Source: Cristatella mucedo (taxonomy: Eukaryota > Bryozoa > Phylactolaemata > Cristatellidae). From it: a stretch of 64,000 nucleotides of DNA. The stretch is from NCBI GenBank assembly GCA_009760855.2, contig WPIO01000031.1, positions 949,001 through 1,013,000 of the forward strand. Direction: 5' to 3'. The position numbers and the translations under genes were made by a program. Numbering within the stretch: position 1 is the stretch's first letter; every line of letters starts with the position of its first letter. Positions 3,025-63,889 of the stretch are shown one piece after another. The notes beneath the pieces were generated by a model. The model searched no databases, was not told where the DNA came from, and worked only from the letters and a program-made list of their open reading frames with translations.

Positions 3025-6000
3025 GTGCTCGCTTTCTCTGAATACTTCCTAACGCGCTTGATCAATATGTTTTTTTGCTTTATAATAAATTTTTTTTCGT
3101 TAGCACGTCGTGTAATCAATAATGTTGGAAATGTTTTAGACTCATAATGCTGACCTGTTGATAGACCGTCGTCTGCCTTTTCATGCTTTGCTTGGTGGGA
3201 ACAGTTGGAAAATCTTAAGTGAGTGGCATAGCTCAGCATAATTTTTGCATGTGTCTTTGTACGCCTTTCTTCCACAACTTGATTTCCTTATTCAATGATC
3301 ATTTTGTGCTCTCCCCAGGATGCGCCACTGACGAGCACATTAGTGTATGTGCAGACAAGTTGTCTTAGTGAATGTGTGTGTGTGTGTGTCTGAGTGTGTG
3401 CGTGTGTTTGCATGCGTGCGTGTGCGTTCTTCTGTGTGTGCTTGCCGGCGTTTGTTTGTGAGAGACAGCCGACTCAGGGGTCCTAGAACAATTAGCCTTA
3501 CCCTTTGAGACATCCATCTTCCTTGGCAGCCTGCTTTGGTCAAGCGTTTTGGGGCGCTGAGAATGGCTCACGGCTGATGACCCAGCTTCGGAGCAGTAAA
3601 TCAACGGTGTGTGCAGCGTCGTCAGCAGAATAATCCATCGATCTGCCTCAGTCTGATCTGCATTGAGCTGCTAGCTGTCAAGTGGTTTCGGCACTGACAG
3701 TGGCTCGGCAGTGCAAAACAATACTTGTGCCTGTAATAAATAGGCTGGAGAGTGTACGAGTGATGGTGAATCCCTCTGTACAAATAGGTCGGTAGAATCC
3801 CTTTAAAGCCACGCTTCACTGTGAGGGCTGCTTCCATTCTGTTTCAGTCTTGGGTGCTTATGTCACGAAAACTAGGGGGCTGTCCTAGACTTAAGCAAGA
3901 CTGAACGAAGACTCGGATGCTGAGCGCGGTTCTAGTTCTTGGACAAGACTTGGGCAAGATCCGAGTAAGGTGGCCTCAGACACACAGCCACCAGCAAAGG
4001 GTGTCGTTTATGTCGGTTTATACTCTCCCTCTTGCTGATGTGATTGCCAAGCACAATCTAGGTTTTCACTTCTATGCGGATGACACTCAGTTGTACCTTT
4101 GCTTTGATCCCTCCCAGCCTTCGAGCACCTCGAATTCTCTCAACTCACTTGCTACACGTATTCATGACATCCGCACATGGATGGCAGCAAATTTTCTAAA
4201 ACTAAACGATGATAAAACAAACTTACTAGTTACGGGCAAACACAGTGTGATTCACAAATTGGAAAGGCTGACGCTCAAAATTGGCTCGGCCAGCATATCT
4301 CCTGTTGAATCAGCTCGAAATCTTGGTGTCATGTTCCAAAGTGACCTCTCGTTAGACGACCACGTCAGCTCCACAGTCAAATCTGCCTACTTTCAGCCAC
4401 ACAACATTGCTAAAATTCGGGCTTGTTTAGATAAGGATACCACGTCTTAATTGGTCCATGCATTTGTGACATCCCGACTTGATTTCTGTAACTCGCTGCT
4501 TACTGGCCTACCGGCGTGTGCAATCAGGCGATTACAGCTTGTGCAAAACTCTGCAGCTAGGCTTGTCTGTCGTGAACGTCACAGTTGCCAGATCACACCA
4601 CTTCTCAACGACCTGCACTGGCTACCAGTCAAGCAACGGATCGACTTCAGTCGCTCACTTTTAGGTCACTTCATTCTTTGGCTCCAGCTTGTCTCTCAGA
4701 TCTACTTCCCCATCAGGCCAGACATCGTACCACCCGCTTTTCGGAATCCAGCAGTTTACCAATACCGTGTACAAACCTCAGATCCTTTGGAGACCGTGCA
4801 TTTAGTTCGTATGCTCCCAAAGCCTGGAACTCACTCCCGACTTGCGTCAGAACATCCCCTGACTTGACCACATTTAAAAGAACTTAAAAACACACCTATT
4901 TAGGACAGCATTTAGTGCTTCCCTGTGATTCGTCCTTCATGTGCTTATGCGTGCTGACACTGCATGCTGCCACTAACCACACTTGCATGGTGACCCTGTG
5001 CATGTCACCCCTAACTATGTTATTCACGTTGTTTATCAAGCATGATATTACTCACCATTCAATCGTGTTTCACTTTGCAGCAAATGTAAAGCACCTAGAA
5101 AGAGATTGAGTTCTCTGAGGGCGCTTTATCAAGAGCATTATTATTATTATTATTATGTCTCGATCAGCAGAACTACATCTAGCCATCAATGCATCTAGAA
5201 ATGCATCGCCAGGAATCCATTTCATATAAGAATGAGATTGAGATTGTGAAGACGGCAATACGGGACAATGGTGGAAGATTAAAATTCACCGGAAGGTGCT
5301 GAGGGCCATTTCCTGCCTCACTAATAAAAGCAGTTTACCCATGATCACTCTGGGTTGGAGCTAGTAGGGAGCAAGACTTGGAGGAAAACTGACCTTGTAA
5401 ACCTCCTTCTCGGATGAAGACCGAAGCAGAACAGAAACAAGACTCATTGAGCAAATGTGGCTTAAGCTGAGCTAGCAAGCAATGGAAAGTCTACAATGCA
5501 AAGACTGAAATGGGCTAGATCGAGCTGGCGTCTTAGTGAATAAAGTGCTTGACACCAGAGACAGGGAAATTTTGCTTGGTTACACTACTCAGCCTCCAAC
5601 AGTGAGTGCGCATAAAAGTGTGCAGACTCTTTTGCCTATGAGTGTGTATGCACGCGGTGGTTTTCAGGTGCACCTTGCTTCAAGGTTCATTGCTTTGTGC
5701 GCTCCTGCAAGAAGCTGCTCTCTGCCTTTGCCTGAAGTTGATCCAAACCGGTCGTGTCCATGCAAGCTTGATTAGTGACCGTTCTTAAAATCACCAGCTA
5801 CTTTGCTGTTGGCTGCCGGTCACCGATGCCACCCCGATAGCATCGAGACCAGCTCTCATGATGAACAATCTATGCCGGCCGAGTTCGTCGGTGGAAGGGG
5901 CTTCTGTTAATCTGCTGACCTTCGGCCCCAGCTAGCTGCCCGAGTTCGACTCTCTGGACCGGCGCACAAGGCATATCCCGTGCTTTCTTTCTCAGAGGAG

Positions 6001-12000: not shown

Positions 12001-15000
12001 GGGCATTTAGGGTATTATGGCCCTAAAATGAGAGATTTCCAGAGCAGAGAATGTGGATTTTGCTGTCGCGAGTGCAAGGCTTGTCAAAAAGGTACTATAT
12101 TTTGTGCGAAGGCTCTTCTTAAAACTGCTCAGTATGTAGCTGGGTAGCTCAGTTTAGCGTGTTACTGTTCCCTGTAAAATTGTACTTTCCACTCGTGGTT
12201 GGGTCCAACAGATTACCGAAATAATACAAAAAACGGCCCAGTTCCAAAATACAAGAATGCAACCTAAAGTGAAACTGAAAAGACGCACTATTTCGATAGC
12301 ATATATTTTGTAAGCAATGACATTAACAGATGGGAAATAGTTAAGCAGGCAGCTGTGTATCTTGTAAGATGTAATTACTGATTAGCCCTTGTAGCTATAT
12401 TAGATCCCTGCAATAATGAGGAAGTTTTCTTTATCATGTAAGCTTTTATCCGTGATTGTAGATTGTGCCGTTGCTTCACTGGTAGAAACTCACCGAACCT
12501 TATTTCAGAGGTGCCAGTTTTCCCTAGGTAGTTGGACAATGTGGTCTACCCATTTTCAGCAAAAAATGACATTCTATGACCAACTTGTCTCAAGCAATCA
12601 ATGTGCTTGTCGCTTTGCACAACTAATAATCTCTGGAATGTTAACTGTGTGCTACTTTTTATTTCACTGTGAATTATCGGTTGTGAGCACTGTTTGGTTA
12701 CTCGATATGAATTAAACACTTGAAATGAGCGGCATGAGCTCATTTTTATGTTGCTGTTTTGCATAGCTTAACAGCATGATTCATTTTATAGACATATTTG
12801 TAATCGTGGAAGAAGTGGCCAAGATATTCGGCATCAGCATGGACAAACTTTCAAAAGCTTTAGCAAAAAGTTGGCTCGGTTCTGCAGAAGACTCTCAGAC
12901 TCCAGTGCTTGATGACCTCAACAGCAGCATGGTACGCTCTTGCTTGTGAAATTAGGGAGTATTTGACTAATTCTTCTCGATTCGCCGCAGCTGATGCAGC
13001 GTGTTTCTTTGCTCGCACAAACCCCTGCTCATTCGGGCACTGTGCCTCTGGCCTGTTGACCGACCTACCAAAGACCTGCCAAAGGTTTCTGCAAATATTT
13101 TTCGGAAACCTTCGAGCCTCAGCATGCGTTAATTGTGTGCACATCTCATCATGCTGTTCTTTACTTTCTGTTTTCATCTTGCAACGTTTCTTTGTTTACA
13201 TTAATGGTTTGGTGGCTGCAGAATATCGCTACTTTAGCTTGTGGTGAACCTTATAATATTTTTGACTGCATCATCAGGGCTTGTTGCCTTGCACTACTTG
13301 GTTGGATGCATTCATATCATTCCCTTGGTGGTCTGTCTGCCGAACACCTGCCAGACGGGTCAGCTGTGGTAATTATGATTGAGATGCCTGTTTGTACTTG
13401 CTATACTTTTCCATGTTGTCAGACCGTCATCGGAAACATTAACATCTCTCTTAGCCCGAATACTCGTACCAGCAAGGTCGACGCGGTCGACGAAGATGGA
13501 TCCGTGGTTGTTAGCAAGTGAGTGGCTTGCCTCAGTTAAAAATACCTGCCATATGGCTTACGGAATCCATTTTACCCCTACAGCTCATAATTCTTGCTGC
13601 ATGCAATTAAACTCGTGTATGTGAGCTCATCATGAACCCGTGTAGAGTGTAGCTCATTATGAACCCATGTAGAGTGTGCAGGCATGCAGCCTGTTATTGC
13701 ATTGGCTGGCAAGTGAATCGCCAGCTACGAGTTCTCAGTTTCTGTGCTGAAAATCCCCTTACACTGTTAATAGGGTCGCGTGCTTACACAGAGAAAGCAT
13801 CTCACCAGCTCCCGACTTCAGTCCCTCGACGTCTGTAATATGCCAGTGTCAGAACTGTTTGACTGCTGTAGCAAAAGCTAGAGCAAACAGCTGTTGATAC
13901 CTCTGGCAGCTGCAGCGTTTGCTGGTGCAAACGTTAAGGATAGATCGAGAAAGCATGGATATGATCCAGCTTTTGTGTTTTCTTTACGTACTTAAGGGGT
14001 AGCTGATTTACCAGCCTCATTTATAAAGCAGCAAAAGAGCCTTAATCTCTATCAGCACTGCTTGTACTTGAAATGGTCGGCAACCAATAATAATAATACG
14101 TTCGATAAAGTACCCTCAGAGAACCCAATCTCTTTCTAGGCACTTTACATTAGCTGCAAAGGAAGAACGATTGAATGGTTAGTCTAACCATGCTCAATAA
14201 ACAACAGGAATAACATAGCTGATATGCACAGGGTCAGCATGCAAGTATGGTTAGTGGCAGCATGCACAGTGTAAGCATGCATAACCACATAAAGGACTTA
14301 ACACAGGGACCCACGAAATTATTTGATAAATACGTGCGTTTTTAGTTTCTTTTTAAATGTGGTCAAGTCAGGAGATGTAGTGACGCAAGTCGGGAGTCAG
14401 TTTCATGCTTTGGGACCATACGAACTAAAGGCACAGTCTCCAAAGGATTTGAGGTTTGTATGAGCTGTAGGTAAACATTTAGATTCCGAAAAGAGGGTGG
14501 TACGATGCTTGGCCTGGTGTGGAAGTAGATCTGATCGGTAGGTTGGAGCCAAAGAAGAAAGGGACCTAAACGTTAGTGACAAAACCTTGAAATTGATGTG
14601 TTGCTTGTCTGAAAGCCGCTGCAGGTCGGCAAGAAGTGGTTAGGTGTGGCTACTGCGCCACTCACAACAGACCAGCCTAGCTGCAGAGTTGTGAACCAGC
14701 TGCAAACACCTGATTGCACAGACCGGTAGACAAGTAAGCCCTAAGTAAGTCAAGAGGAAATTTCACAAAGGCATGGACCAATATAGATGTTGTATCCCTG
14801 TCTACAAAAGCCCGAATTTTAGCAATGTAGCTGAAAGTAGGCAGACCTTACTATGGAGCTGATGTGGTCGTCTAATGAAAGGTCACTTTGGAACATGACA
14901 CCTAGATTTCGTGCAGGTTCAACAGGAGATGTGCTAGCAGAGCCGATTTTGAGCATTAGCCTTTCCAATTTCTGAATCACACTCGGTTTGCCCATAACTA

Positions 15001-17635
15001 GTATGTTAAATTTATCATCATTCAATTTAAGAAAATTTGCTGTCATCCATGTGCAGATGTCATCAATACATGCAGCAAGGGAGTTGGGAGAATTCGACGT
15101 GCTGGAGGGCTGGAAGGGTTCGAAGCAAATGTACAACTGGGTGTCATCTGCGTAGAAGTGAAAGCCTAGATTGTGCCTGGCAATCACATCAGCAAGAGCG
15201 AGGGGGACCAAGCACAGAGCCTTGAGGTACCCCATATTTCAGAAGTTCCTCGGATGATAGGTATCCATTCACATCATTACTCTGGAGTCTCTCACTGAGA
15301 TAGGACCTGAAGTGCAGTGCAGTGTCAGTGATGCCCAGGCGAGATGAGAGATGCTCGAGAAGGACTTGGTGATCGATAGTTCAAAAGCTGTCGAGATATC
15401 GAACAAAACCAGCAGAGATACTCTACCTATGTCTGCATTCCTAAGTAGGTCGTTGTACACCCGACGTGATGCTGACTCTGTAGAGTGATTAGCTCTAAAG
15501 CCAGACGAGTTTACTAACAGGGTTTGAATTTCGATATATGAGTTCAGTTGGTCTGCCACGACTCATTTCAGTGTCTTTGATAGGAATGGTAGAAAGGAAA
15601 CTGGGCAGAAGTTGCTCAAGTTCTCTTGTACTAGTGTTGCTTTCTTGAGTAGTGAATGGCCCGACTACAGCCTTTTTGACAGGTGCTGAGGCATTACCTG
15701 AGGCCAGTGACATTTTTATGGTGTTAATTATGCATGGCGGCAGCAGATGAATGCATCGTAGAAGCAGGACGGTGGGGATAGGGTCCAAAGAACCAAGTTC
15801 TCTCATCATTTGATGATGCCGACTCGCATGCTGTTCAGTTGAATTCTCATTGTCACTGTCGTCATAGTAACTCGGTCTTGCCTCCTCTGGCTTTCAGTCG
15901 ACTTCGTCCACGGGATGGACTCGGCAGAGTGGTTGTTGTGGGCCAATTGCTTACCTGATTGTCGGTTCAGTGGAGGGGCAGGGCCTCAGGCAGCAGTCCC
16001 CTGTTGCATCTTGACGTATTCGTTGTACTCTAGGACTTAGGGCTTTCATCCATTCCTCATAAGCAAATCGGTTGTAAGATTGCTAATATTTAAAAAACTG
16101 CCTGCCATCATTGTAATTGACCAAGGATTTTTATAGTGATTTAAGCCAAATGTGGGTTGTCAGTGCTAACTTAATCTGTATTTTTTTCTGTGTTGCCATC
16201 ACAGGCAATTACATGAGGGCTGTGCAATTTGTCTTTCAAAAATATCTAATGACTAGTGCCTTAGATTCCATGTCCGAGATCGTGACCAACTGCTATACGG
16301 TTACCATTACCTTCATTCTTTTCTGCTTTGCGACATTTCCGTATTGCTCCAATGCTATGCACGTTAGCACATAAGATATCAACTCTTTGTGTGCGATGAC
16401 TGGTAGGCATTCGAACAAAGACCGAATGCTTGCAATGAAATGACGTTTTCAGGCATTGATGTTTCACAGTGGCGTTTTCATAAATCGGTGTATTTGATAG
16501 AAAAATATTTAGAAAAAGTGTTTGTGAAACTTAAAAATTGGCAATGTCCCTATTGATAGTACCTTAAAAGCAACTGCATTGACTATTTTTGTAGATACTT
16601 TTTGTAGATACTAGACATGCCGGGTATACGAAAATTCTAAGCATTGTCTATGCTGATTTCTTAATTTCCAATCCATAGCCAATCGGCATGCCGTCTGACC
16701 ATCCAGTTGACTGCATTTACTACAGCCCAAATGTGGGCTTGGCACCAACTGGGACTTAGCAGCATTCAATTGCTAGGCAATTGCGTATGGTGAGACTTTT
16801 GTGCATTGGAACCTGTGGAAGATGGTTGGTTCAAATATTATGGATAACACTAAGATACCCGGTCGGCTACGTGTTCCTGCACCCACAAGGGCAAGCTGAT
16901 TTCAGAATGAATCCTCATCGGTTTACCCCTGCCTGGGTTCATGCTCAAAGCCTGCTGCTGGCTGCTACTGAGGAGCCATTAGGCAACGATATGAACAGGT
17001 ATCGACTAGGTGAACAAGGTGTGTTTGCCCAAAACATGTAAAAGAAACCGCTTTTGTCTGTCAAGCATCAAGTCGCTTGTTTTCAGTGTGCTAGGATGAA
17101 AGCACATTTACCTATAAAGACTAGAGCAAAGTCGAAGGGTGTCATATCACATCTGTATGCTAGCTTTTTTCAAGTTTACATGACGTGAGGAGACCGATAC
17201 TGCCAGATGCTTGGGACTGCTTAATTGCCTCTATGTCCAAGTGGCAGATGATTGCTAATCGTGGTAGTGCAACGTCACTATAACTTATTTAAGTTGTTCT
17301 GAAACTTTGCTTGTACCCTATGTAATCAAATTTTATATACTTTGCATGATTACAGTAGATTGCAATAACTTTTTTTTTATACCAGAAGCAGAACTTTTGG
17401 TGCTGTGGCTATTTTAGGCAGCCTCGTCAATACTTTTGCGCACTCGAGTGGAAATTTGGCTGTCGGTTCAGTCACATTTGCCAAATTTGTAATTGTGTTT
17501 TAGGGTCATAGCTATTCTTCGACATGTCTCAATCGATTCATCAGTTGCATTCCTGTTTAACATGGCATTCCGGGTAAGCTTGCATTACATTTTATTTCAG
17601 TTGCTGTTGGTTGCTGTTGATGTCTCCTCTCTTTC

Positions 17636-48460: not shown

Positions 48461-50106
48461 GTGAGTCTCGGCGTAAACAGCGTTAGCTTGTTGCTGGGTA
48501 TTGTCTGAACGCTGGGTTGGGCTGGTTTGTGACGGAGAGAGGGGGGATGTGTTCCCGTCGGCCGGCTGGTGGGGGGGGGATGTAGTGTGCTCCTGCGGCT
48601 TCAGCTGTTGTAATTAGCGAAGCGCCTTGGACACTAATGCACATGCCTCACCTGTGGCCACTAGTTAAACCATTGACTCAACGCATCTTCAGGCCACTAA
48701 TGCGTGTTATATTTCGTGCCGTCTGCTGCGATTGATCGAGCTTTCTTATATGTGCCCGTTGAGAGTAATAAAAGGAGTGTCTATGTCTCCGGCGAGACTC
48801 CAAACAACCGCCGCCGGAGCCACAGTCAGGGGTGCATCTTTTGGCCGTGGTGCCTACTACTTTGCCTTCGCAAAGTAGCCTGCGAGCCTCAAGCCGCAAG
48901 GCTCAGACAGTACTTAAACTGTTCTGCCTGGGAGTGTGCAAAGGATCATTATCTTGCTGCAAAATGTAACGATCTCCAAGAAGCAGAGTATTTGAACTCT
49001 TTAGTTCAACTTCCTTGACCAACGATAGCTTGAGTATAGTACTTTTTTTTGACAATTCCTTGTCACGTGCTGATGCAGTGGCCCAGCTAGTTGCCTGTTT
49101 TGAACCCCATAGAATGACTGCGAAGCGACTTCGAGGCTGGATGTTCCGCCTACTCTAGGAGCCGACTTTTTTTTTTTTAATAAAACAGGCTCAGTGAAAT
49201 ATGCTTCAGCAGCACAGACGATACATAAGCTTGTGGCCTTTACGCCTAACCAGAAAAGGAGGTAATACAGAATCGTTGTGGGGCGACGTCACACAACGTT
49301 TACATACCGGCAGCATAGGTTTGTTTTTGGGCTGTGCTTTGCACTCCATAAGTATGCCTGGCATCGTAGAAAACCTTATTACCCAACCGAATGTATGACT
49401 GAGTGTTGCTGAGTGAGGAGGGCAATACAGGCAAGCCAGTGCAGGTGCTACGCTTGCTAACCTCTCTGTGCTCGTGTGCGTGCTTGGTATGCGTTATGCC
49501 GAGACAAGCCGAGACAAGCTTCTTGACCGAAGTCTCCCGTGATCGTCAGCTATGGGAAGTGTGACACTCGCGTGTCTACTGCTACAGTTGGAACTCACTC
49601 CCGACTGAAGTCACGACATCCCTGATTGATGGCATTTAAAAAGAAGCTAAAACCACACCTGTTTATCACAGCATTTAGTGGTTCCTTGTGATTCATCCGT
49701 TGCGTGCTTATTTATGCTTGGTGACACTGTGCCTGCTGCCACCAACTAAATTTTACATGGTGACACTGTGCAGGTCACCTCCAACCATGCAATGTTTGTT
49801 GAAATTGTGCATGTTACCACTAATCATTTGATCATGCTTCCGTTTCAGCATATGTAAAATGCCTAGTAAAAGCTTGTTCTCTAAATGTGCTATACAAATT
49901 TATTAATAATGTTATTATTACGGTTAGCATTGTGTGCCGCCCCATTATTGTAGGTGATGCTCCGTACAGATGTTATCTGTGTGCATCTGTCATGCGAACC
50001 ATTTTCTATGGATTCTGCTGCCTGCTCTCCTTTCCCACATCCTCTGCCTCTCTCCCTGATGTCCTCTCTCTCTCTCTCTGTGCTTCTCTCACTCTCTTCC
50101 TGCCGT

Positions 50107-50175
<69 letters not shown>

Positions 50176-50619
50176 CTCTCCCCCTGCCTTTGTCTCTCTC
50201 TGCCTCTTGCCCTGTCTCTTGCTCTATCTCCTGCTCTGTCTCTTGCTCTGCCTCTTTCTCTGCCTCTCTCTTTGCCCTCTCACTCTCTATGCCACTCATT
50301 TCTCTTTGCTTCTCTCCGTGTCTCTGTCTCTCGGCCTTTCTCCTGTCTCTCTCTGCCTTTCTCTCTCTGTCTCTCAGTATCACTCTCAGTCTCGTTCTCT
50401 GTCTTGTTCTCTCTCTGTCTCTTCCTCATTCCCTCCCTCTCCGTCTCTCTCTGTCTCTCTGTCTCTCGGTCTCTCTGTCTCTCTGTCTGTCTGTCTCTCT
50501 CTCTCTCTCTGTCTCTCGGTCTCTCTGTCTGTCTGTCTCTCTTGCTCTCTCTCTCTGTCTCTCTCTGTCTCTCTCTGTCTCTCTCTGTCTCTCCCGGTCT
50601 CTCTCGGTCTCTCTGTCTG

Positions 50620-50652
<33 letters not shown>

Positions 50653-50737
50653 GCGCCTCTCTGTGCCTCTCTCGCTCTCCATGCTTCCCTCTCTGACTCT
50701 CTATCTACTCCACCTCTACCCGTCTTTCTGTCTCTCC

Positions 50738-50771
<34 letters not shown>

Positions 50772-51105
50772 CTCTCTCTGTTTGCCCTGCTCTCTTTCTC
50801 TGCCTCTCCCTCTCCTTCTTCTCTCTCCTTCTCGACTGCCTCTTGCTCTTCCTCCCTTGCTGGTCTTTTCTTTTCTTTCACTCTTTCTTTCTTTCGTTCA
50901 CTTTCTCTGCCTGCTCACTTTTGCTTGCTCTACCGCTTTCTCTCTCCCCCACTCTCTTCTCTTGGCTGCCCAAATCATTGTCGACCCCTTTCCATTATCC
51001 CCACTCACTGTTCTCTTTCTCCCTCTCTATTTATCTCTCTGTAGGGATCTCTGTTTATTTGTCTCCTTCTGTCTCATTGCCTGCATGCCTTTCTACCTTC
51101 CCCGT

Positions 51106-51167
<62 letters not shown>

Positions 51168-54100
51168 CCCATATCTTTCGTGGCCTACTGGGTCTCTTGA
51201 ATATGCACATGAGGTTCGTTTGTACAGCTCATACAGTTTGTATGACTGCACGTACTTGCACTGTGCAGCAGCGCCTGCTTGAACGCTTGTATGCTCAGCT
51301 GCGCTTCGGATACGAACGTGTCATGCCATCGCTCAAACATAATATAATAATATATTTATTTGTATAGCACCATAAGAGAACTTAAATCTTTATCTTGGTG
51401 CTTCATATATGTCTCAGGGCTCGAGCCGACGACTTCGGTCGTCAGAGGGAAGAACCTTAACCTTGCTCGTCAAACGAGCTTACCTTAACCCCTGGGTAAA
51501 AAAAAACCAGCAAGGGGGATGCTGTGTTGGCAGTGGTGAAGCACTAGGTGCAGCAGTAGTTGAGGCAGTAGCTGTGGTATTGGCTGCAGTAGTTTTTCCA
51601 TCTACCTTCTGCCTGCTGATGTCTGTTGGGTGTAAGGGGTGGCTGTAGACAGCTGCATTGTAGGATCGGTCGCTTGTAACCTCTCATGTGACATGCAATT
51701 ATCATCCTGCCTACTCAGCAGAATTGAACACGGTCCCATGTATAGGAGCTTGCCTCGAGCTTCAGGTGCCAGATCCAGTTTAGAATTACAAGATGGCAGC
51801 TTCCTTGTTTTTAATCGAAGAGCATATGGTGCAGTGACTTGGTTAACATGTCTTGGCAGTCTTTCGGACTGCTTTCTGCCATTGGCTGTCAGCTGGCCGT
51901 ATGGCCAACCGATTGATCGGCCAGCTTCTGCTAATTACGCGATATCTTGCAACTGCTTAATGTCCTGCAATTGCACGATATAGTGCAACTACCGATATCC
52001 TGCAACTGCTGCCCGATGACCCGGGGAAGGCGCTATCGTGCCTGTCGGCACTGCTGACAGAGCAAACTGTCCTTCGAACCAGCTGTTGATGGGCAAACTA
52101 GAACCAGCCCAGTGCTCCGAGGCATTTGGGATTTGTGATGGTACTAGTAACTTGCTTAGGCCTTGCACAAATATATTAGTCAATAGATTGACCTTACAGG
52201 AATAGTGTTGCACCAAAGCCAATCAACAGCATCCGAGCATTTGCTCTGAAGCTGATCACATCACCTAGCAAATGCAGACACAAGGTGAAAGGCCAGGCGC
52301 CGGCTCCTGGAAAATTGCTGGCCGTGCCCTGGCTGAAACTGCTGTACCACCTGTACTGCTGCCCAGTTAGCTCTGCCAGGGCTTGAGAAAAATTTCGAAA
52401 GTAATTCTTTGCTTGGATTACCCCTTTGAAGCCGGTTTCCCGGCCTGGTGCACATCATACTTTGAAATGCATGCCATATTCAGATGCATAATTGTTGGCA
52501 AAGCTGATTAAACAGCCTTGTTTATGTAGTGGCGTAAGAGCCGTATCGTGGCTGTCTCTGCAGTTTGCAGTGGGCAATTAAATATGGCCCACTGCACGAC
52601 TCGAACCCACGACCTGGGTCGTGAAGAGTGGGCACCTTACCCCTGGACTGAGATCCAGTGGCCAGTAGTGCTGGGAAAAGGGGTGCCGAAAGAGGGACTG
52701 GGGGTCACAAGCCTTGACTCTCCCCCTTATCAGACCCAAAGAGAAATGCCCCACTGCATGCCAACAGGGCACACTTCTGCAGTGCTCCTGTATGATTAGC
52801 CATCCAGCAAGAGACCCTTCTAGACTCAATCCTGGTTTTACCTCTGCTAGTTAAGACATGTTTAAACGTCACTGAGTATCAGGCATCCTTTTCCTTGGCA
52901 AAGTGGCCGTCACCCATCATAGCAAACGCCGCGGCAGCCGCATGCAGTGGCAGCTTAGAAGCACAGGCAGTGGCAGCAGCAGCTGAGCTGTGTAGGCCAG
53001 TAGCAGCATTTGAGTGAGGCGCTGCTTTACTACTGCTTGTTTGAAGCTGTCCCCCCCCCAGGCCAGCCCGCATAGTCTTAGGTAGCTTAAACCCTCCTCT
53101 TAAACTTCCTCTCACTGCGTCGTGTGATCTTTCTAACAATGCACAGTAGCTTGAGTTGTCTGTGAAAAGCTCGTGGAGGCAGCAGTAGTCTAACACAGTT
53201 GGAGCGCATCTCGGTGATGTAGAACCGTCCGACTGTGTGCTATGAAAGGCCACAGACTGCTGTTGGCTTGAGATCCGGCGTTTGAATAAATATAATTCAT
53301 TTGTGGCGAGTGCCCTAAGAGAATTTGATCTCTATTCGGGTGCTTCACGTGTGCCACACGGCTTGAGCCAACGACCCCGGTCTGACCCTGGTCGGGGCGA
53401 GCACTTAACTTAACCACTGGGCCAAACCAGCACGGCAGTTGTGCCTTAGTCGTGGGCCTGAGGCTCGTGCAACATTGAGGGTGGAAGACCCAGATTTAGG
53501 CAATCGCTAGTTTTATTTTGGATTGGTGCTTTGCTTACATGCCGTCGTTCTAAATTAGCAGCGCAGGGAATGTTAGCAGCGAGCGGTTTTTATATGAAGA
53601 TACTCTCAAGAGTAGAGGGGAATTGTTGACCTTGCCTGAGGTCCTTGCATGTTTTGGCTCGTGCTCGAAGGCCACTGCCTGGCCTTGCCTGGGGTAGCCA
53701 ATCACGAGAGGGATTCAGTGGAATCAGCAGATAGCAGCTTGCCTCCTCGGCGCCACCCCATGCAGACTCGTCGTGAAAAGAAAGTAAATACGGTATTAGC
53801 CGATTCAACAGCCTCATTTTTTTAGTGGCAGAAGAGCCTTAATGGCTATCACTACCGTCACTTGCAGTGGGCAAGAAAGGATCGGCCACTTCAGGACTCA
53901 AACCGACGAACTGGGTCGTGGAGAGCAAGCAACCTTACCTCCTGCGCTCGGGCCCAGGGGCTCATTGGTGGTGAACCCATGATGCTGGAAGATAAGTTTA
54001 TCCATGCAACTCCAAGACGGTATTCGCCGTGAGAGTATGTACGTTATGCTGAATAGTTTTATATCCCACTCACAGTCCAAAAGCAAAAGGTGGCTTCAGG

Positions 54101-58905: not shown

Positions 58906-61900
58906 TATATTTCCTGTAGTCAGGCTGCAGTACTCTGATCCTTGCTCTTATCAATCAAATATAATAATAATAATACACTTGATAGAGCGCCCTCAGATAA
59001 CTCAATCTCTTTCTAAGCGCTTTACATTTGCTGCAAAGGAATATCAATACTCATCCCCGGTCCCCCACCCTTGCCTGCCTATGCTAATAATTTGGCTTCA
59101 TGTGACACTGGTGACTTCGGCTCCTCCGAGCGTTGTGCAGTGACAGATACAGCTCAAGGACCTGTGATGGCTGCCCGCCAAATGCAAGATGTCGTGTAAG
59201 GTCTTGGGTATTTATGAAGGAAGGCAGGAAGTGTAGGCAAGCAAAGCATTTTCTTGTTAAATCTTTGACCTCCTCTGGAGATGCGGTCAACTAAGAGAGC
59301 TTAGCTATCCTCGGGTCTCTCGTCCTGCCCTACCTGGTTTCGCAGAAATGATTGGAGTTCCTGCGCCCACTTTGCAAACTTTGGCATCTCCGTGATCAAA
59401 CTCACTTTTTATTTTACCTTATCTGTAGAGACGATAGACTGCTTAGAAACAATGGAAGGGGAGAGAGAGAGGGTTGATGCCTAAACGTGCGCTCGGGCCT
59501 GTTGTGTGATAGCCCCCCCCCCCCCCCCCGTGCAGATACGTAAAAAGACGTCCAACAGAAGCCGGTAATAAGAAAGGCAGCACGAGTGACTCAGCTCTGC
59601 CGTTCATACATTTCCTGTAATCTGCTCCTTTGCTGCAGGAGAGTGCGTAACATGACGGAGAAGAAGCGACGTGACCAGTTCAGTCAACTGATCGGTGAGC
59701 TAGCCAATATGGTGTGCTCTGACAGCAAAAAGCCCGACAAGACCAACGTGCTGCAGATGACAATCGATTTCTTGAAGCGGCAGAAAGGTAGGCAGACTGA
59801 ACATATTTGTGAACCTGTCGCCTTGGCCATGCGCTCGCGTGCTTGCACAAGCATTAGCAGGCATGTGATTGCGCCTGCACTTGCATATCTGCATCGCCGG
59901 GCATACGCATGGCTTTTCCCACCACACTGCCGGCCAAAACTGTGCACAGCCATGTAGAGTGCATCGCTGTAAGAACTGTGGCAGCTGCTGCTGCTCCTGC
60001 TGCTGATGCTGCTGCTACGATGTGTATATGCCAGCACTGCTGCAGCCTGCATATTAGCGGCATTGTGCGCTACTGAGATCTTTGCCTCGAAGTGGTGCTG
60101 AGTGGGGCTCGACAGTTCAGCGATGTCGCTAGCTGAAATGTCACATCGTCTGCTGCATGGATGTCGGGGAGCTGTCTTCCGAGTCCGAGCGCTGCCACTG
60201 ATCTGCCGTTGCTGACTTGCCCAGAGACACAAGCCTAAGGCGTCCTCAGGTGCCACATCGTCGGCGCCCCTAGGCCAGGCTTGCTTAGTTTGCGTATGAG
60301 TGCGAAAGGGTGAAAGGAAGCCATGGCTCATGAACTGCAGCGTTTGTTCGCTTCATCGTAAAATGCAGAGCGAAAAGTTCTTAGTGCAAGTCGGGGGATG
60401 ACCAAATGTGGGGATAATATGTCAGGTGTCTGAAATACCATTCGCTAGCTGTCAACTTCGATACTGCAGTGGTCATTCGCTCGTGTCGAACTTACACTGA
60501 CTCAAGTGAGTGATGATAGGATGACGTTTGAGGGGCAGATGTGGTCTTGCAAGCCACTTCCATTGTTTGGGTAGCATGCGTGCGAGATGGTCGAATGTTC
60601 CTGAGCCTCCGTGTGTGTGTGTGTGTGCTCGTATGTGTGCGTGCGAGATGGTCGAATGTTCCTGAGCCTCCGTGTGTGTGTGTGTGTGTGTGTGCTCGTA
60701 TGTGTGCTTTCGTGCTGCCTCATTGAAAGGACCATTTTGCATTTGCTTTCTCCGTGCTGAGGACGTACGGGTGCAGCGCTTGGCATGCGATCCTATGTGT
60801 GTGCAGTTTTTTGGAGCCTTGGAATCTCTCTCATCAGCCTCGATTTTTGCTTCGGCGTGGAAGGGAGGGGAACCTCATTGCAGTCTCAAACCTCATCGGG
60901 TCGCGCACCCGTTCGGGAAGCGAGAGGGAGAGGCAGAGGCAGAGGGGCGGACCCAGTGTCCTCCTGCTAGGTGGTGTGAGCACTGGCTGAGCTAGGACAC
61001 ATTTGCTCCCGAGCAGGTATTGTCTGCACGAAGGCCGTGGCGATCAGTGAGTTGGAAGAGTGTCTGTCACGAGAGCAATTTCTGGAAAGCACGAGCGAGC
61101 AAAGGGTTCCTAATTCTGGAGTGGGGTGGAGCGGCCAGGACTTCTTTCAACCGAGTTCACTCTCGGGCGAGGCCGCTTGCCAAGTGATACTACGTTGCTG
61201 TCGATGCTTGTGACAAGTTGTTAATGATGACCAGTGACCGGCGCTTGTTTACGCTTGTTGCTGTTTCGATTGGTGCCGAGCTCTGTCGACCGTCAGGATT
61301 CAGGACCTAGTGGATAGCTGGGTCAGGTGGCAGTAGTCGGCTGGCATCGTCATTTAATGCTGATCTTCGTTGAAAGCATCAGCCAGATAAGCTGCTGTCA
61401 TTAAGCCGGCTGTGTGAAGTCCGGCCGCCTGTGTGAAGTGTGTAACTACCAGTGTACCCTCACATCCTCCTTGATAGATGGTTGAAGGGGTCGGAGGCTT
61501 ATCGGGCCAGTGTAATGGCATCACTGCAACCAATGGCAGTCGAAAGGATTCTTGGGCAGATAATCCTCCATCTATCACCCGGCCTCCTCCTGCTCAAGCT
61601 GCTCCTTCAGGTGGATAGAATAGATGCCGGCCATCTCATGGCAAGTAGTTAGACTTTGCCTTTATTAATATAATTCATTTGCATGTATAATTCATTTGTA
61701 TAGCGCCCCAAGAGAACTTAATCTCTATTCAGGCGCTTCACATATGCCTCGGGGCTCGCTCGAGCCCACGACCTCAGCCGGACCTTGGTCGGGGCAAGCA
61801 CCTTAACCGCTGGACCAAACCAGCACGGCGGTGGGGGCTCTTGTATCTGACCTAGGCTTGCAAAGATGTGGCGTGGGGCATTGGCCTGGTGCATCCTCAC

Positions 61901-63889
61901 CTGAGTGTGTGTCACTTGCTGTGCATGGCTGCATCCACCCATACTGTGTAATGAATGGATTAGTTGTCTTAAATTTGCAGTGAAAGGGGGCTTTGTTGCC
62001 ACGACTTGTGCTGGACATCAGGTTCTAGTGCAGTGGCTCTCAACCTGTGGGTCGCGACCCCTTTGGGGGTCGAACAATCCTTTCACAGGGGTCGCCTAAG
62101 ACCATCAGAAAACACATTTCCACATTTTGCATACAATATTTTTATGGCTGGGGGTCGCCTTAACAAGAACTGGAGTAAAGAGTCGCGGCTTAGGAAGGTT
62201 GAGAACCACTGTTCTAGTGGCTAAACCCTATTGTGGCCAGCAGGCAGTGGCTTTCAGCTGGCTACCTGGTAGGCGATCGATCGATCGTTGGTGATTGGCC
62301 AACAAGCTGGCTAGCTGGTAGGTAATCATCGGTGATTGAGCTAGCATTTTAGCTGATGGCTAATGATTGGCTAGGAGGTGTGGAAGTGGCATATGGGCCT
62401 TGGCAGACTTAATCTACCCCTAATGTAGTGTATCCGTGTCTGTAACTCCACAAAGCCAAATGACTATCTGGGTGTGTACCTGGATTTGTTTTGTATAGAG
62501 CACTCAAAGCCTAAGCAGCTTTTGGTATGCATTCGGTACCCAACAGACTTATAATTTATAATAAGCTGGTTTGGTTTCTTAGTTTGCCCGTCTGTGACAT
62601 CACACTTACACGCTGAGCTGGTTTGGCCCAATGGTTAAGGTGGTCACCCCACCAAGGTCAAGTTGATTGTATTTGATGACCAAGGTTGTGGGCTGGAGAC
62701 GCGTGACACATGTGAAGCGCCTGAATAGGGATTAAGTTCTCTTGAGCTGCTATACAAATGAATTATTATTATGCTAGGCCTTTCATAGTTGTATGTAGGC
62801 GTAAAACATAGTTTGAGCAATGATGAATGCCAAAAAAGGAGGGGGATAATTTAGTAATTTGCATATGTAGATGCAAATAAATGCACTCTTTTGGTTGATA
62901 TTGAACATGGTCAACTTTAAACAGTAAAATGTGAGCTTACCCATGTTGTTAAATGGCTGAAAATTAATGGCAGACCTAAAATTCACACCCAGTGCATTTT
63001 TGGATGAATACTAATCAAAATCGAGCATCAGCCTAAGCTCAAAGAAAAAGACACTTGCACTAGCAACAAGTAGTCGGGGAGATGCCAGAACGAGGCTGCA
63101 GAACCAAAGCTGGATGAAAGAGGGTTCTTGCCAGCGACAATGTGCCCGAGAGACCCAGAGGAAAAAGCAGAAGCATGACGAATTTGGGAGTCACATTTTT
63201 CCTGTCATACATGCCGACTGAAACCTAATTTCAGTATTATTGCATTATTGTAGTGCGTGCGAGGGCTTGGCCAGGTCAAGCTCTCCTGTTGTAGCTGGGT
63301 GTTGGTGGAGGTATGGGCTATTTTGCCATTGCAGGTATGTGTGCTCATGGGTGCTCGTGGGGGCGCGTACACAGTGCGCTCGTTTGTTTGTGGCAGGTTG
63401 AACGTTGTCTTCTCCACCGGTGGGAAAGGGTTGAAACTGCCCTCTCCATGTCGCTTGCTTGTGATTGCTGATTCGATTTCATTTTATCTGCTGGCAAGTT
63501 GGGCTATTTCGCTCATCAGTTTTTGCAACAGCGTGGTGTTCACTTGCAGCTTCCCTTGCTAGACGTTGCCTCAGTTAAATAGATAGTGACAGGCACAGTG
63601 CTAGTGCCGAGGATGCAGGTGGATTTCTCCCTCCTTCCCCTGTGCTAGAGAGCCGCCTGGGGGGGGGAGGTGTTGGCTTGGCGATGACAGGGTGGCCAAG
63701 CCGATGCAGCTTGCCCACGATCGCCCAGCCGCTTTGCCCCCCCCCTGCGCTCTGTGCTCGCCACGTGCCGCACTGCTACTTTTGCATCTTCCAGCTTCTC
63801 AATCTGCTATCGGTGCTGAGTCGACCAGTGACGATGGGTGGAAGCCGTCCTTTATGTCGGACGACGAGCTGCTGGCACTGCTCATGGAG
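48420..63889 (+). CDS. CLOCK: CLOCK/NPAS2-type bHLH-PAS transcription factor, first three coding exons (partial)
   Basis: CLOCK pairs with a BMAL/Cycle partner and binds E-boxes in the nucleus to drive circadian transcription. Three exons join in phase: 48420-48460, 59639-59787 and 63795-63889, 95 codons in all. The order is a short basic N-terminus (MNYGKRKLAGRAD), then a complete bHLH with the CLOCK-type basic helix RNMTEKKRRDQF. Helix 2 reads DKTNVLQMTIDFLKRQK, and a WKPSFMSDDELLALLME block follows, equal to the QDWKPTFLSNEEFTQLMLE lead into PAS-A. PAS domains and the rest lie beyond the window. The first exon is less certain, since an additional exon could exist in the 11-kb intron. Helix 2 (KKPDKTNVLQ) is less like vertebrate CLOCK (RKMDKSTVLQ), so either a CLOCK or NPAS2-like name would fit. 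Confidence 0.85.
49590..49920 (+). mobile_element. L2A 3' end fragment
   Basis: Begins TTGGAACTCACTCCCGACTG in ORF2 and continues through the 3' region (ATTTAAAAAGAAGCTAAAAC). It ends with a damaged hairpin and an ATTAATAATGTTATTATT tail. Confidence 0.85.
50040..51165 (+). repeat. Giant (CT)n-rich pyrimidine tract of about 1.1 kb
   Basis: Almost unbroken pyrimidine sequence: pure (CT)n cores at about 50,108-50,170 and 51,108-51,162, joined by CTGTCT, CTCGGT and CTGCCT variants. It opens frames of up to 442 codons that read as serine/leucine repeats and, on minus, arginine/glutamate repeats. These are not genes. Confidence 0.95.
51340..51512 (-). mobile_element. SINE-B copy, diverged
   Basis: The reverse of a tRNA-like head with a partly duplicated middle (two CCTTAACC blocks), followed by the hairpin (GCACCATAAGAGAACTTAAA) and an AT tail. 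Confidence 0.78.
52502..52655 (-). mobile_element. SINE-A copy, diverged
   Basis: Tail complement GCTGATTAAACAGCCT, altered body and B box complement GACTCGAACCC. It matches the family over its whole length, with several small changes. Confidence 0.82.
53284..53436 (-). mobile_element. SINE-B copy
   Basis: Tail AATAAATATAATTCATTTGT, hairpin (GTGCCCTAAGAGAATTTGAT ... GGGTGCTTCAC), then the tRNA-like part ending TTAACCACTGGGCCAAACCA, the reverse of an A box of the form TGGCCCAGTGGTTAAG. Confidence 0.88.
53797..53955 (-). mobile_element. SINE-A copy
   Basis: Tail complement AGCCGATTCAACAGCCTC, a full body and a mutated B box (GGACTCAAACC). Confidence 0.83.
54185..54530 (-). mobile_element. L2A-related LINE 3' end
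   Basis: The minus strand reads RCTGPRLWNLRPKIIRSN, the RLWNSLP motif of ORF2, followed by a shortened 3' region, the hairpin at 54,205-54,250 (AAAGCGCCCTCAGAGAACTC on plus) and a short AATAATAATT tail. Confidence 0.75.
55185..55915 (+). mobile_element. L2B LINE fragment interrupted by two L2A tails
   Basis: L2B starts GTGTCTCCTTTGCTGAAGG and carries RLKTVGDRSFSSKGLRMWKS. It halts near 55,475 and resumes at about 55,693 with TTCCAGCTGTCCTGAGCTGC, ending in the TTTGTGGAGTTATATATATT-type tail near 55,915. Other copies are continuous across the break. Confidence 0.8.
55478..55692 (+). mobile_element. Two adjacent L2A-type hairpin tails inside L2B
   Basis: The first runs from CCATCCGATCGTGTTTCC to an ATT tail at about 55,583. 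The second begins near 55,600 and ends in (ATT)n at about 55,686. They differ just before the tail: CTTTATCAAGTGTG in the first and CTATACAAATGT in the second. The second therefore matches the SINE-B type of ending. Confidence 0.78.
56073..56234 (-). mobile_element. SINE-A copy, left arm of an inverted pair
   Basis: Complete reverse copy: tail complement TAGCTGATTTAACAGC, body, B box complement GATTCGAACCC and head near 56,220-56,234. Confidence 0.9.
56258..56423 (+). mobile_element. SINE-A copy, right arm of an inverted pair
   Basis: Full-length plus copy. Head GAGCCATAATGGCTCACTAGG, with inverted GACCTTGGCCCCGAGGTCG, B box GGTTCGAATCT and tail GGCTGTTAAATCAGCTAG. It lies head to head with the left copy, with only about 25 bp between. 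Confidence 0.92.
56664..57713 (+). other. Long GC-rich open stretch (349 codons), coding status doubtful
   Basis: The frame from ATG 56,664 stays open for 349 codons. Two minus-strand frames are open too (246 codons at 57,033-57,773). The translation is rich in alanine, cysteine, leucine and serine, with no domain, signal peptide or repeat. It runs straight into an L2 fragment at about 57,700. It is not joined to the CLOCK exons by splice signals that I can see. A GC-rich intronic insert is the simplest reading; a young retrogene or repeat ORF cannot be excluded. Confidence 0.3.
57700..58330 (+). mobile_element. L2-like LINE ORF2 C-terminal fragment
   Basis: It reads SVVKSAFFHLLYNIAETRG (compare [16 protein letters not shown]), then QQWLPIMQ, LTFTALHSLASAYRPES and FSYYAPKAWNLLPTD, with stops and frameshifts. 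No hairpin tail is attached. Confidence 0.8.
58493..58620 (+). repeat. 63-bp tandem duplication
   Basis: Two copies of a unit with TTCTTGAGTCTTT, TGTGTGCTTTTGCAT, CTTAGC and TGATAACTGT, and the start of a third. Confidence 0.85.
58658..58784 (+). mobile_element. SINE-A copy, internally shortened
   Basis: The head is shortened and the B box region reads GTATTCGAATCTTG. The body and tail GGCTGTTAAATTAGCT are intact. Confidence 0.8.
58805..58902 (+). mobile_element. L2A/SINE-B type hairpin tail with (TA)n
   Basis: Hairpin TTAAGCACCTGAAAAGAG ... GTAGGGTGCTATACAAAG, then CATTATTA passing into a (TA)n run at 58,873-58,902. Confidence 0.72.
58960..59050 (-). mobile_element. Solo L2A hairpin tail
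   Basis: Plus strand: AATAATAATAATACACTTGA, GAGCGCCCTCAGATAACTC, CTAAGCGCTTTACATTTGC. This is a clean reverse copy of the L2A 3' end. Confidence 0.8.
59511..59529 (+). repeat. Poly-C run of about 19 bases
   Basis: Unbroken C run 110 bp upstream of the bHLH exon. Confidence 0.95.
59639..59787 (+). CDS. CLOCK: CLOCK-like bHLH exon
   Basis: Acceptor TTTGCTGCAG, donor AAAG|GTAGGC. It covers the basic region RRVRNMTEKKRRDQF (the E..RR DNA-contact pattern), helix 1 SQLIGELANMV, a loop and helix 2 TNVLQMTIDFLKRQK. The EKKRRDQF string is characteristic of the CLOCK/NPAS2 group rather than BMAL or ARNT. Confidence 0.95.
60585..60712 (+). repeat. Tandem duplication of about 64 bp containing (TG)n
   Basis: Two near-identical units, each GTGCGAGATGGTCGAATG, TTCCTGAGCCTCCG, a (TG)n run of different length and GCTCGTATGTGTG. 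The duplication looks recent. Confidence 0.9.
61662..61829 (-). mobile_element. SINE-B copy, best preserved
   Basis: Full length on the minus strand. A-box-like TGGTCCAGCGGTTAAGG, a B-box-like GTGGGCTCGAGC stretch, then AAGCGCCTGAATAGAGATTA and TTCTCTTGGGGCGCTATAC as an intact hairpin, then an AATTATATTAATAA-type tail. The TTCATTTG tail unit is duplicated. Confidence 0.9.
62023..62030 (+). repeat. Target-site duplication, left copy
   Basis: TTCTAGTG, identical to 62,212-62,219 on the other side of the hAT element. Confidence 0.9.
62031..62211 (+). mobile_element. SPIN-like non-autonomous hAT element
   Basis: A 181-bp element with 16-bp terminal inverted repeats CAGTGGYTCTCAACCT (one mismatch), flanked on both sides by the 8-bp duplication TTCTAGTG, whose centre CTAG suits hAT insertion. 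Internal blocks GGGTCGCGACCCCTTTGGGG, TCGCCTAAGACCATCAGAA, TTTTTATGGCTGGGGGTCGC and GTCGCGGCTTAGGAAGG match the short SPIN element family as I know it from mammals. It codes for nothing and would have been moved by a transposase made elsewhere. Confidence 0.88.
62212..62219 (+). repeat. Target-site duplication, right copy
   Basis: TTCTAGTG, with no mismatch to the left copy. Confidence 0.9.
62240..62350 (+). repeat. Imperfect repeats of TGGCTAGCTGGTAGG type
   Basis: TGGCTACCTGGTAGGCGATC and TGGCTAGCTGGTAGGTAATC blocks, each followed by TTGGTGATTG or CGGTGATTG, plus a (GATC)n stretch and related half-units. Confidence 0.65.
62405..62555 (-). mobile_element. L2B tail fragment
   Basis: On plus it starts TAATGTAGTGTATCCGTG and has TCTGTAACTCCACAAAGCC and CACTCAAAGCCTAAGCAGC. 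This is the same 3' end as at 11.1 and 44.8 kb. Confidence 0.85.
62615..62771 (+). mobile_element. SINE-B copy
   Basis: Plus orientation. GCTGGTTTGGCCCAATGG (A-box region), GGTTGTGGGCTGGAGACGC (B-box region), hairpin GAAGCGCCTGAATAGGGATT with TTCTCTTGAGCTGCTATAC, then AATGAATTATTATTAT. Confidence 0.9.
63795..63889 (+). CDS. CLOCK: CLOCK-like pre-PAS exon
   Basis: Acceptor ATCTTCCAG, donor GGAG|GTGCAT. The split codon joins the bHLH exon. WKPSFMSDDELLALLME matches the conserved segment directly before PAS-A in CLOCK and NPAS2, and the exon ends at the same place as I recall for the vertebrate gene (before ALDGF). Confidence 0.92.

Follow-up and report, generated by a model that had tools for sequence, protein, structure and literature searches.

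How did a short DNA transposon come to lie in a 64-kb stretch of an invertebrate genome, and to which family does it belong? The element in question is 181 bp long and occupies positions 62031-62211 of that stretch (the window), which corresponds to C244:949001-1013000 of a home assembly of 572,011,866 bases in 688 contigs. The data described below indicate that it is very probably one copy of a miniature of SPIN (hAT superfamily, Buster group), a family that would have entered the host lineage horizontally, the miniature then having been amplified in trans by a SPIN-type transposase. SPIN has been recorded in mammals and reptiles, in a blood-sucking bug and in a snail, and is a classic example of a transposon passed between distantly related animals.

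Structure of the element and its copies in the home genome

The element is the sole sequence between two exact copies of TTCTAGTG (Table 1). An earlier interpretation made from the letters of the window (the sequence-only reading) had placed it, with its perfect 8-bp target duplication, exactly to the base. The first bases of the element are CAGTGGCTCTCAACCT and the last are AGGTTGAGAACCACTG. Its terminal inverted repeats are 16 bp in length and agree at 15/16 positions, and the inverted arms are 86% alike over 22 bp once the target duplication is counted in. Terminal inverted repeats of the kind CAGYGGTTCTCAACC, which we take to define the SPIN family, are present in the element and in the family consensus, and a mouse primer described below agrees with them at 18/19 positions. 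The element is too short to encode a transposase, and no further copy of it was found within the 64-kb window.

The home genome was searched with the element as the query, and the best 40 of 2137 candidates were scored, the window copy included. The other 39 copies, being the best matches only, are 84-88% identical to the window copy over the whole or the greater part of its length. The best E value for another copy was 1.6e-59, which places the element far above chance. An internal 21-mer, CAGGGGTCGCCTAAGACCATC, which forms the first 21 bases of the left subterminal block CAGGGGTCGCCTAAGACCATCAGAAAA, was found exactly at 220 places in the home genome, and a 33-bp core was found at 852 places with three or fewer mismatches in the 572 Mb; the reversed control gave 0 places in both cases. 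Copies are scattered across dozens of contigs, several of which exceed 10 Mb. Further copies in the same genome, which the sequence-only reading had proposed looking for, are present in many hundreds, and the element is not unique but a typical representative of a large family.

Flanks were checked at fixed ends in all 40 scored copies and were tallied by hand. The two 8-bp flanks agree at 8/8 bases in 15 copies, at 7/8 in 13 (28/40 copies with agreement at 7-8 of 8 bases), at 6/8 in five and at 5/8 or fewer in seven. TA occupies positions 4-5 of the left flank (nnnTAnnn) in 33 of the 40. An nnnTAnnn target consensus is typical of Buster hATs, and the element's copies display this hAT/Buster trait, an 8-bp duplication with nnnTAnnn.

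Similarity to rodent sequences

A literature search with SPIN letters found no printed SPIN sequence, only pieces of rodent genomes. SPIN was therefore compared via these rodent letters, which had been printed for other purposes and which are short pieces only. Scores were set against 500 shuffles for the mouse pieces and 1000 for the rat primer. The majority consensus used in the comparison is 187 bp in length and was derived from the 40 scored copies, which are skewed toward good matches.

A primer from the mouse Ate1 locus (PMC2767504) matches consensus positions 1-19 at 18/19 bases (score 33, shuffles no higher than 20), and a second primer from that locus (PMC2767504) matches positions 56-75 at 18/20 (score 30, shuffles no higher than 19). 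An allele of the mouse FDH locus (PMC8376875) matches positions 107-187 at 67/80 (score 90, shuffles no higher than 26). The match of a rat non-coding-RNA primer (PMC5739704) begins at consensus position 60 and extends to 20/22 bases (shuffles no higher than 16), with both mismatches at CpG. The values for the window copy against the same pieces are 18/19, 18/20, 51/63 and 19/22, equal to or below those of the consensus. It is apparent that the internal consensus blocks 56-81 and 107-187 match mouse or rat letters above all shuffles, and that the rodent likeness runs through both arms, beyond the ends. Internal identity with tetrapod SPIN is therefore seen on short rodent pieces, whose papers name no repeat in the passages that print them. 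Similarity limited to the terminal repeats, which the sequence-only reading had held would speak against SPIN, was not what was observed. According to the relevant passage of PMC5857283, SPIN occurs in galago, murine rodents, opossum, tenrec and vesper bats, with transfers dated to 15-46 million years ago. Because SPIN is recorded from murine rodents and the internal blocks match rodent letters, the element is read as a SPIN miniature.

These internal matches also bear on a different possibility, namely that the element is a lineage-specific Buster-type hAT miniature, internally unrelated to SPIN and resembling it only via common hAT ends. Ends of the CAGNGGTTCTCAACC type are, we take it, common to many hATs, and at least one other Buster family resides in this genome; since the match of consensus positions 56-81 and 107-187 to mouse or rat letters exceeds that of every shuffle, such an origin is considered highly improbable.

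Patterns of SPIN letters gave no exact match in viral or prokaryote contigs and no match in phages or plasmids. A further 20-mer did hit one viral contig, L009, but the match does not extend beyond 20 bases and is probably fortuitous.

Table 1. Coordinates (window positions) of the 181-bp element and its parts
Feature	Position	Strand	Remarks
Left target-site duplication	62023..62030	+	TTCTAGTG (nnnTAnnn)
Probable SPIN non-autonomous element (miniature inverted-repeat transposable element, MITE)	62031..62211	+	181 bp, transposase-less by size
Left terminal inverted repeat	62031..62046	+	CAGTGGCTCTCAACCT
Left subterminal block	62086..62112	+	CAGGGGTCGCCTAAGACCATCAGAAAA; first 26 bases spanned by mouse and rat primers
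Right arm	62149..62211	+	Mouse FDH-allele match: window copy 51/63, family consensus 67/80
Right terminal inverted repeat	62196..62211	+	AGGTTGAGAACCACTG
Right target-site duplication	62212..62219	+	TTCTAGTG

Divergence of the copies

The 40 copies have a mean divergence from the consensus of 5.8% (4.9% with CpG sites excluded). For the window copy the distance from the 187-bp consensus is 7.7% (6.8% outside CpG sites), and minor deletions are present, most of them in the right arm; the sequence-only reading, which had called the element intact, was correct for the ends only and not for the body. A less biased sample consisted of 20 of the first 21 listed 21-mer places, the one left out having already been sampled (L035). 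Nineteen of the 20 are the miniature (one of them, L113, without the right end), and one is a longer form (L111). The mean divergence of the 19 miniatures is 8.6% (7.8% outside CpG), a figure from which the 21-mer itself was left out; it was kept in the figure of 5.8% for the 40 copies. The divergence of the window copy is ordinary for the family.

The sequence-only reading had also supposed that the element arrived later than the long interspersed element (LINE) pieces of the window, and this was not borne out. The divergence of the window copy is 0.077, against means of 0.058 (n=40) and 0.086 (n=19), and the reading of the element as lately arrived was set aside, the divergence being ordinary within a large family. 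In the window, LINE pieces share about 81% identity over 1.1 kb, and shorter pairs range from about 72 to 87%. Since the SPIN copies are 84-88% identical to the window copy and the LINE and other repeat pieces about 72-87% to each other, with subfamilies pooled, a later arrival of SPIN is unsupported; with the same pooling, part of the LINE pieces may predate the SPIN copies. The earlier interpretation as a whole is partly supported: SPIN membership stands, on internal and terminal rodent matches, and a later arrival is not demonstrated.

Two LINE-like fragments, at 4025-5148 and 14086-15202 of the window, are 81% identical and contain the reverse-transcriptase-like reading FYADDTQLY. No Pfam match was found for either fragment.

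The longer form

L111 is a 319-bp element with flanks CTCAACAT and CTCTACAT, which are alike at 7/8. Its extra internal part was searched for in the home genome, and the best 40 of 99 candidates were scored, L111 itself included. Three matches to this part (L120, L121 and L122), traced upstream, arrive at the same SPIN left end; because that end recurs, the three places represent short copies too, and none is an autonomous partner. The inverted pair GACCATCGGAAA ... TTTCCGATGGTC is present in L120 and L122, and L121 differs by one base. Together with the AT-rich stretch of L111, this palindrome is presumably that of tetrapod SPIN non-autonomous elements; no printed letters were found to confirm it.

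Search for a transposase

A profile search of the home genome with PF05699 gave 138 matches, 63 of them with scores of at least 69 bits and the next one with 45 bits (hand count). Thirty of these loci (L042-L071) represent a single hAT family of ZBED-like type. Identity to L053 is mostly 99.0-99.9%, the open frames reach about 640 amino acids (e.g. L053 1483-3216, minus strand), and the family has apparently moved very recently. It was rejected as the autonomous partner, having no match to the SPIN consensus. L076 and L087, as well as L084 and L088, are weaker TcBuster-like relatives and were rejected likewise.

A TcBuster sequence was also used as a query, and 69 matches of 890 candidates in the home genome were scored. 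The eight best loci (L092-L099) constitute one Buster family of about 2.7 kb, whose copies are mostly 93-96% alike and carry the ends CAGGGGTGTCCAAC. Each of the eight loci contains 1-3 stops, and amino-acid identity to the TcBuster query is 29-32%. The different ends and the lack of a SPIN match rule this family out as the autonomous partner. Its presence does suggest another arrangement, in which the miniature derives from SPIN but owes its movement to a resident non-SPIN Buster transposase. A family with copies mostly 93-96% alike is at hand, and no SPIN transposase was found among the loci scored; against this, the resident Buster ends differ, hAT transposases usually require a matching subterminal sequence, and stops occur in each of the eight best loci. 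We regard such a mobiliser as unlikely.

Several observations weigh against a SPIN miniature mobilised by a SPIN-type transposase. SPIN ends were seen at 0/58 hAT loci, which are the best candidates only and some of which are possibly short of one end. The SPIN consensus was found in 0/30 PF05699 loci, which span just 1.5 kb on either side of the match, so that one end is possibly out of view, and in 0/20 second-tier loci and 0/8 of the Buster loci. That part of L111 which lies outside the miniature matches the mouse allele at chance level only (188/1000 shuffles were as good), and the flanks of 7/40 copies agree at 5/8 bases or fewer. The comparison with SPIN covers short rodent pieces, and their SPIN label is a link of our own and not of the passages that print them; we take these pieces to be SPIN/URR1. 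The SPIN transposase may be decayed or rare, or may lie outside the candidates that were scored.

Host genome and route of entry

The COX1 gene was found on a 21-kb contig (C688). When read by eye against known COX1 proteins, AGA/AGG correspond to serine, AAA to lysine and TGA to tryptophan, which fits the invertebrate mitochondrial code. This speaks against a vertebrate, tunicate, flatworm, echinoderm, sponge or cnidarian host; a lancelet is compatible. The arthropod cuticle (PF00379) and mollusc haemocyanin (PF14830) profiles gave no match in the home genome; as no control genome gave one either, absence is unproven in both cases. The host may be a lophotrochozoan.

The family is best known from vertebrates, and vertebrate DNA contaminating the assembly might be suspected. 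Copies, however, are present on dozens of contigs, some longer than 10 Mb, the window copy sits amid repeats shared across the window (close inspection being of the window flanks only), and the COX1 code of the assembly is not vertebrate-like. The likelihood of contamination is negligible. Vertical descent of SPIN from the common ancestor of vertebrates and this invertebrate is just as remote, since non-coding DNA would not be kept so alike for more than 500 million years, the age that we assume, and mean distances from the consensus are about 6-9% among the copies examined.

What is directly observed comprises exact ends with a target duplication, the nnnTAnnn preference, the dispersal of the family in hundreds of copies, and identity to rodent letters both inside the element and at its ends. 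Horizontal arrival of SPIN in the host lineage is what we infer from such similarities, because non-coding DNA should not stay so similar across phyla by descent. On this proposal, a SPIN DNA transposon (hAT, Buster group) would have given rise to a non-coding deletion derivative, the present miniature; SPIN would have entered this invertebrate lineage horizontally; and the miniature would have multiplied by cut-and-paste movement, with a SPIN-type transposase, supplied elsewhere, acting in trans on its ends. The supplier would since have decayed, or have been missed.

Other features of the window and the assembly

Of the CLOCK gene named by the sequence-only reading, a CLOCK-type helix-loop-helix exon is real: it lies at 59586-59957 and matches that of mammals. 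For a KNTC1 candidate, of which the single piece 299-667 was tried, solved structures yielded no match. At 61686-61832, 62611-62766, 53291-53439 and other places there is a dispersed repeat that starts in a tRNA-like manner and has a ATTATTATTAT tail; judged by eye, it is possibly a short interspersed element (SINE). A long, impure CT repeat array at 50064-50827 produces false long reading frames. COX1 pieces were also found outside the mitochondrial contig (G000:C166:4375626-4376390, and on C83, C549 and C299); these are probably nuclear copies of mitochondrial DNA.

Comparison with known systems

The resident Buster family (L092-L099) resembles the present element as a Buster-type hAT and differs in its ends (CAGGGGTGTCCAAC) and in having no SPIN-consensus match in 8/8 loci. 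The likeness to tetrapod SPIN non-autonomous elements, those of rodents presumably being URR1, consists of the ends, the left subterminal block and the right arm, as compared with rodent letters, and of an 8-bp duplication with a central TA; the middle of the miniature lies outside the comparison. 

Two invertebrate cases are comparable by description only. SPIN in Rhodnius prolixus is attributed, in the passage concerned, to transfer from vertebrates (PMC11614815); the likeness is that of SPIN in an invertebrate, and the home genome has no arthropod-cuticle match (no positive control). For Biomphalaria glabrata, the corresponding passage describes about 1,000 copies of a hAT that shares identity with SPIN, and states that the assembly yielded no intact transposases (PMC5440852). 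This resembles the many hundreds of copies, and the lack of a SPIN transposase among the loci scored, in the home genome, which differs in having no mollusc-haemocyanin match (no positive control).

SPIN or SPIN-like elements in invertebrates are thus already in print, in the passages cited for Rhodnius and Biomphalaria, and the mechanism is not new; what is described here is probably a new host for a well-known family. The chances are about even that SPIN entered a previously unrecorded invertebrate phylum or class, attaining at least many hundreds of copies there, independently of its arrivals in a blood-sucking bug and a freshwater snail. If true, the presence of high-copy SPIN in one more lineage of invertebrates would broaden the set of hosts known for the family, and would help to test which animal contacts carry transposons across phyla.

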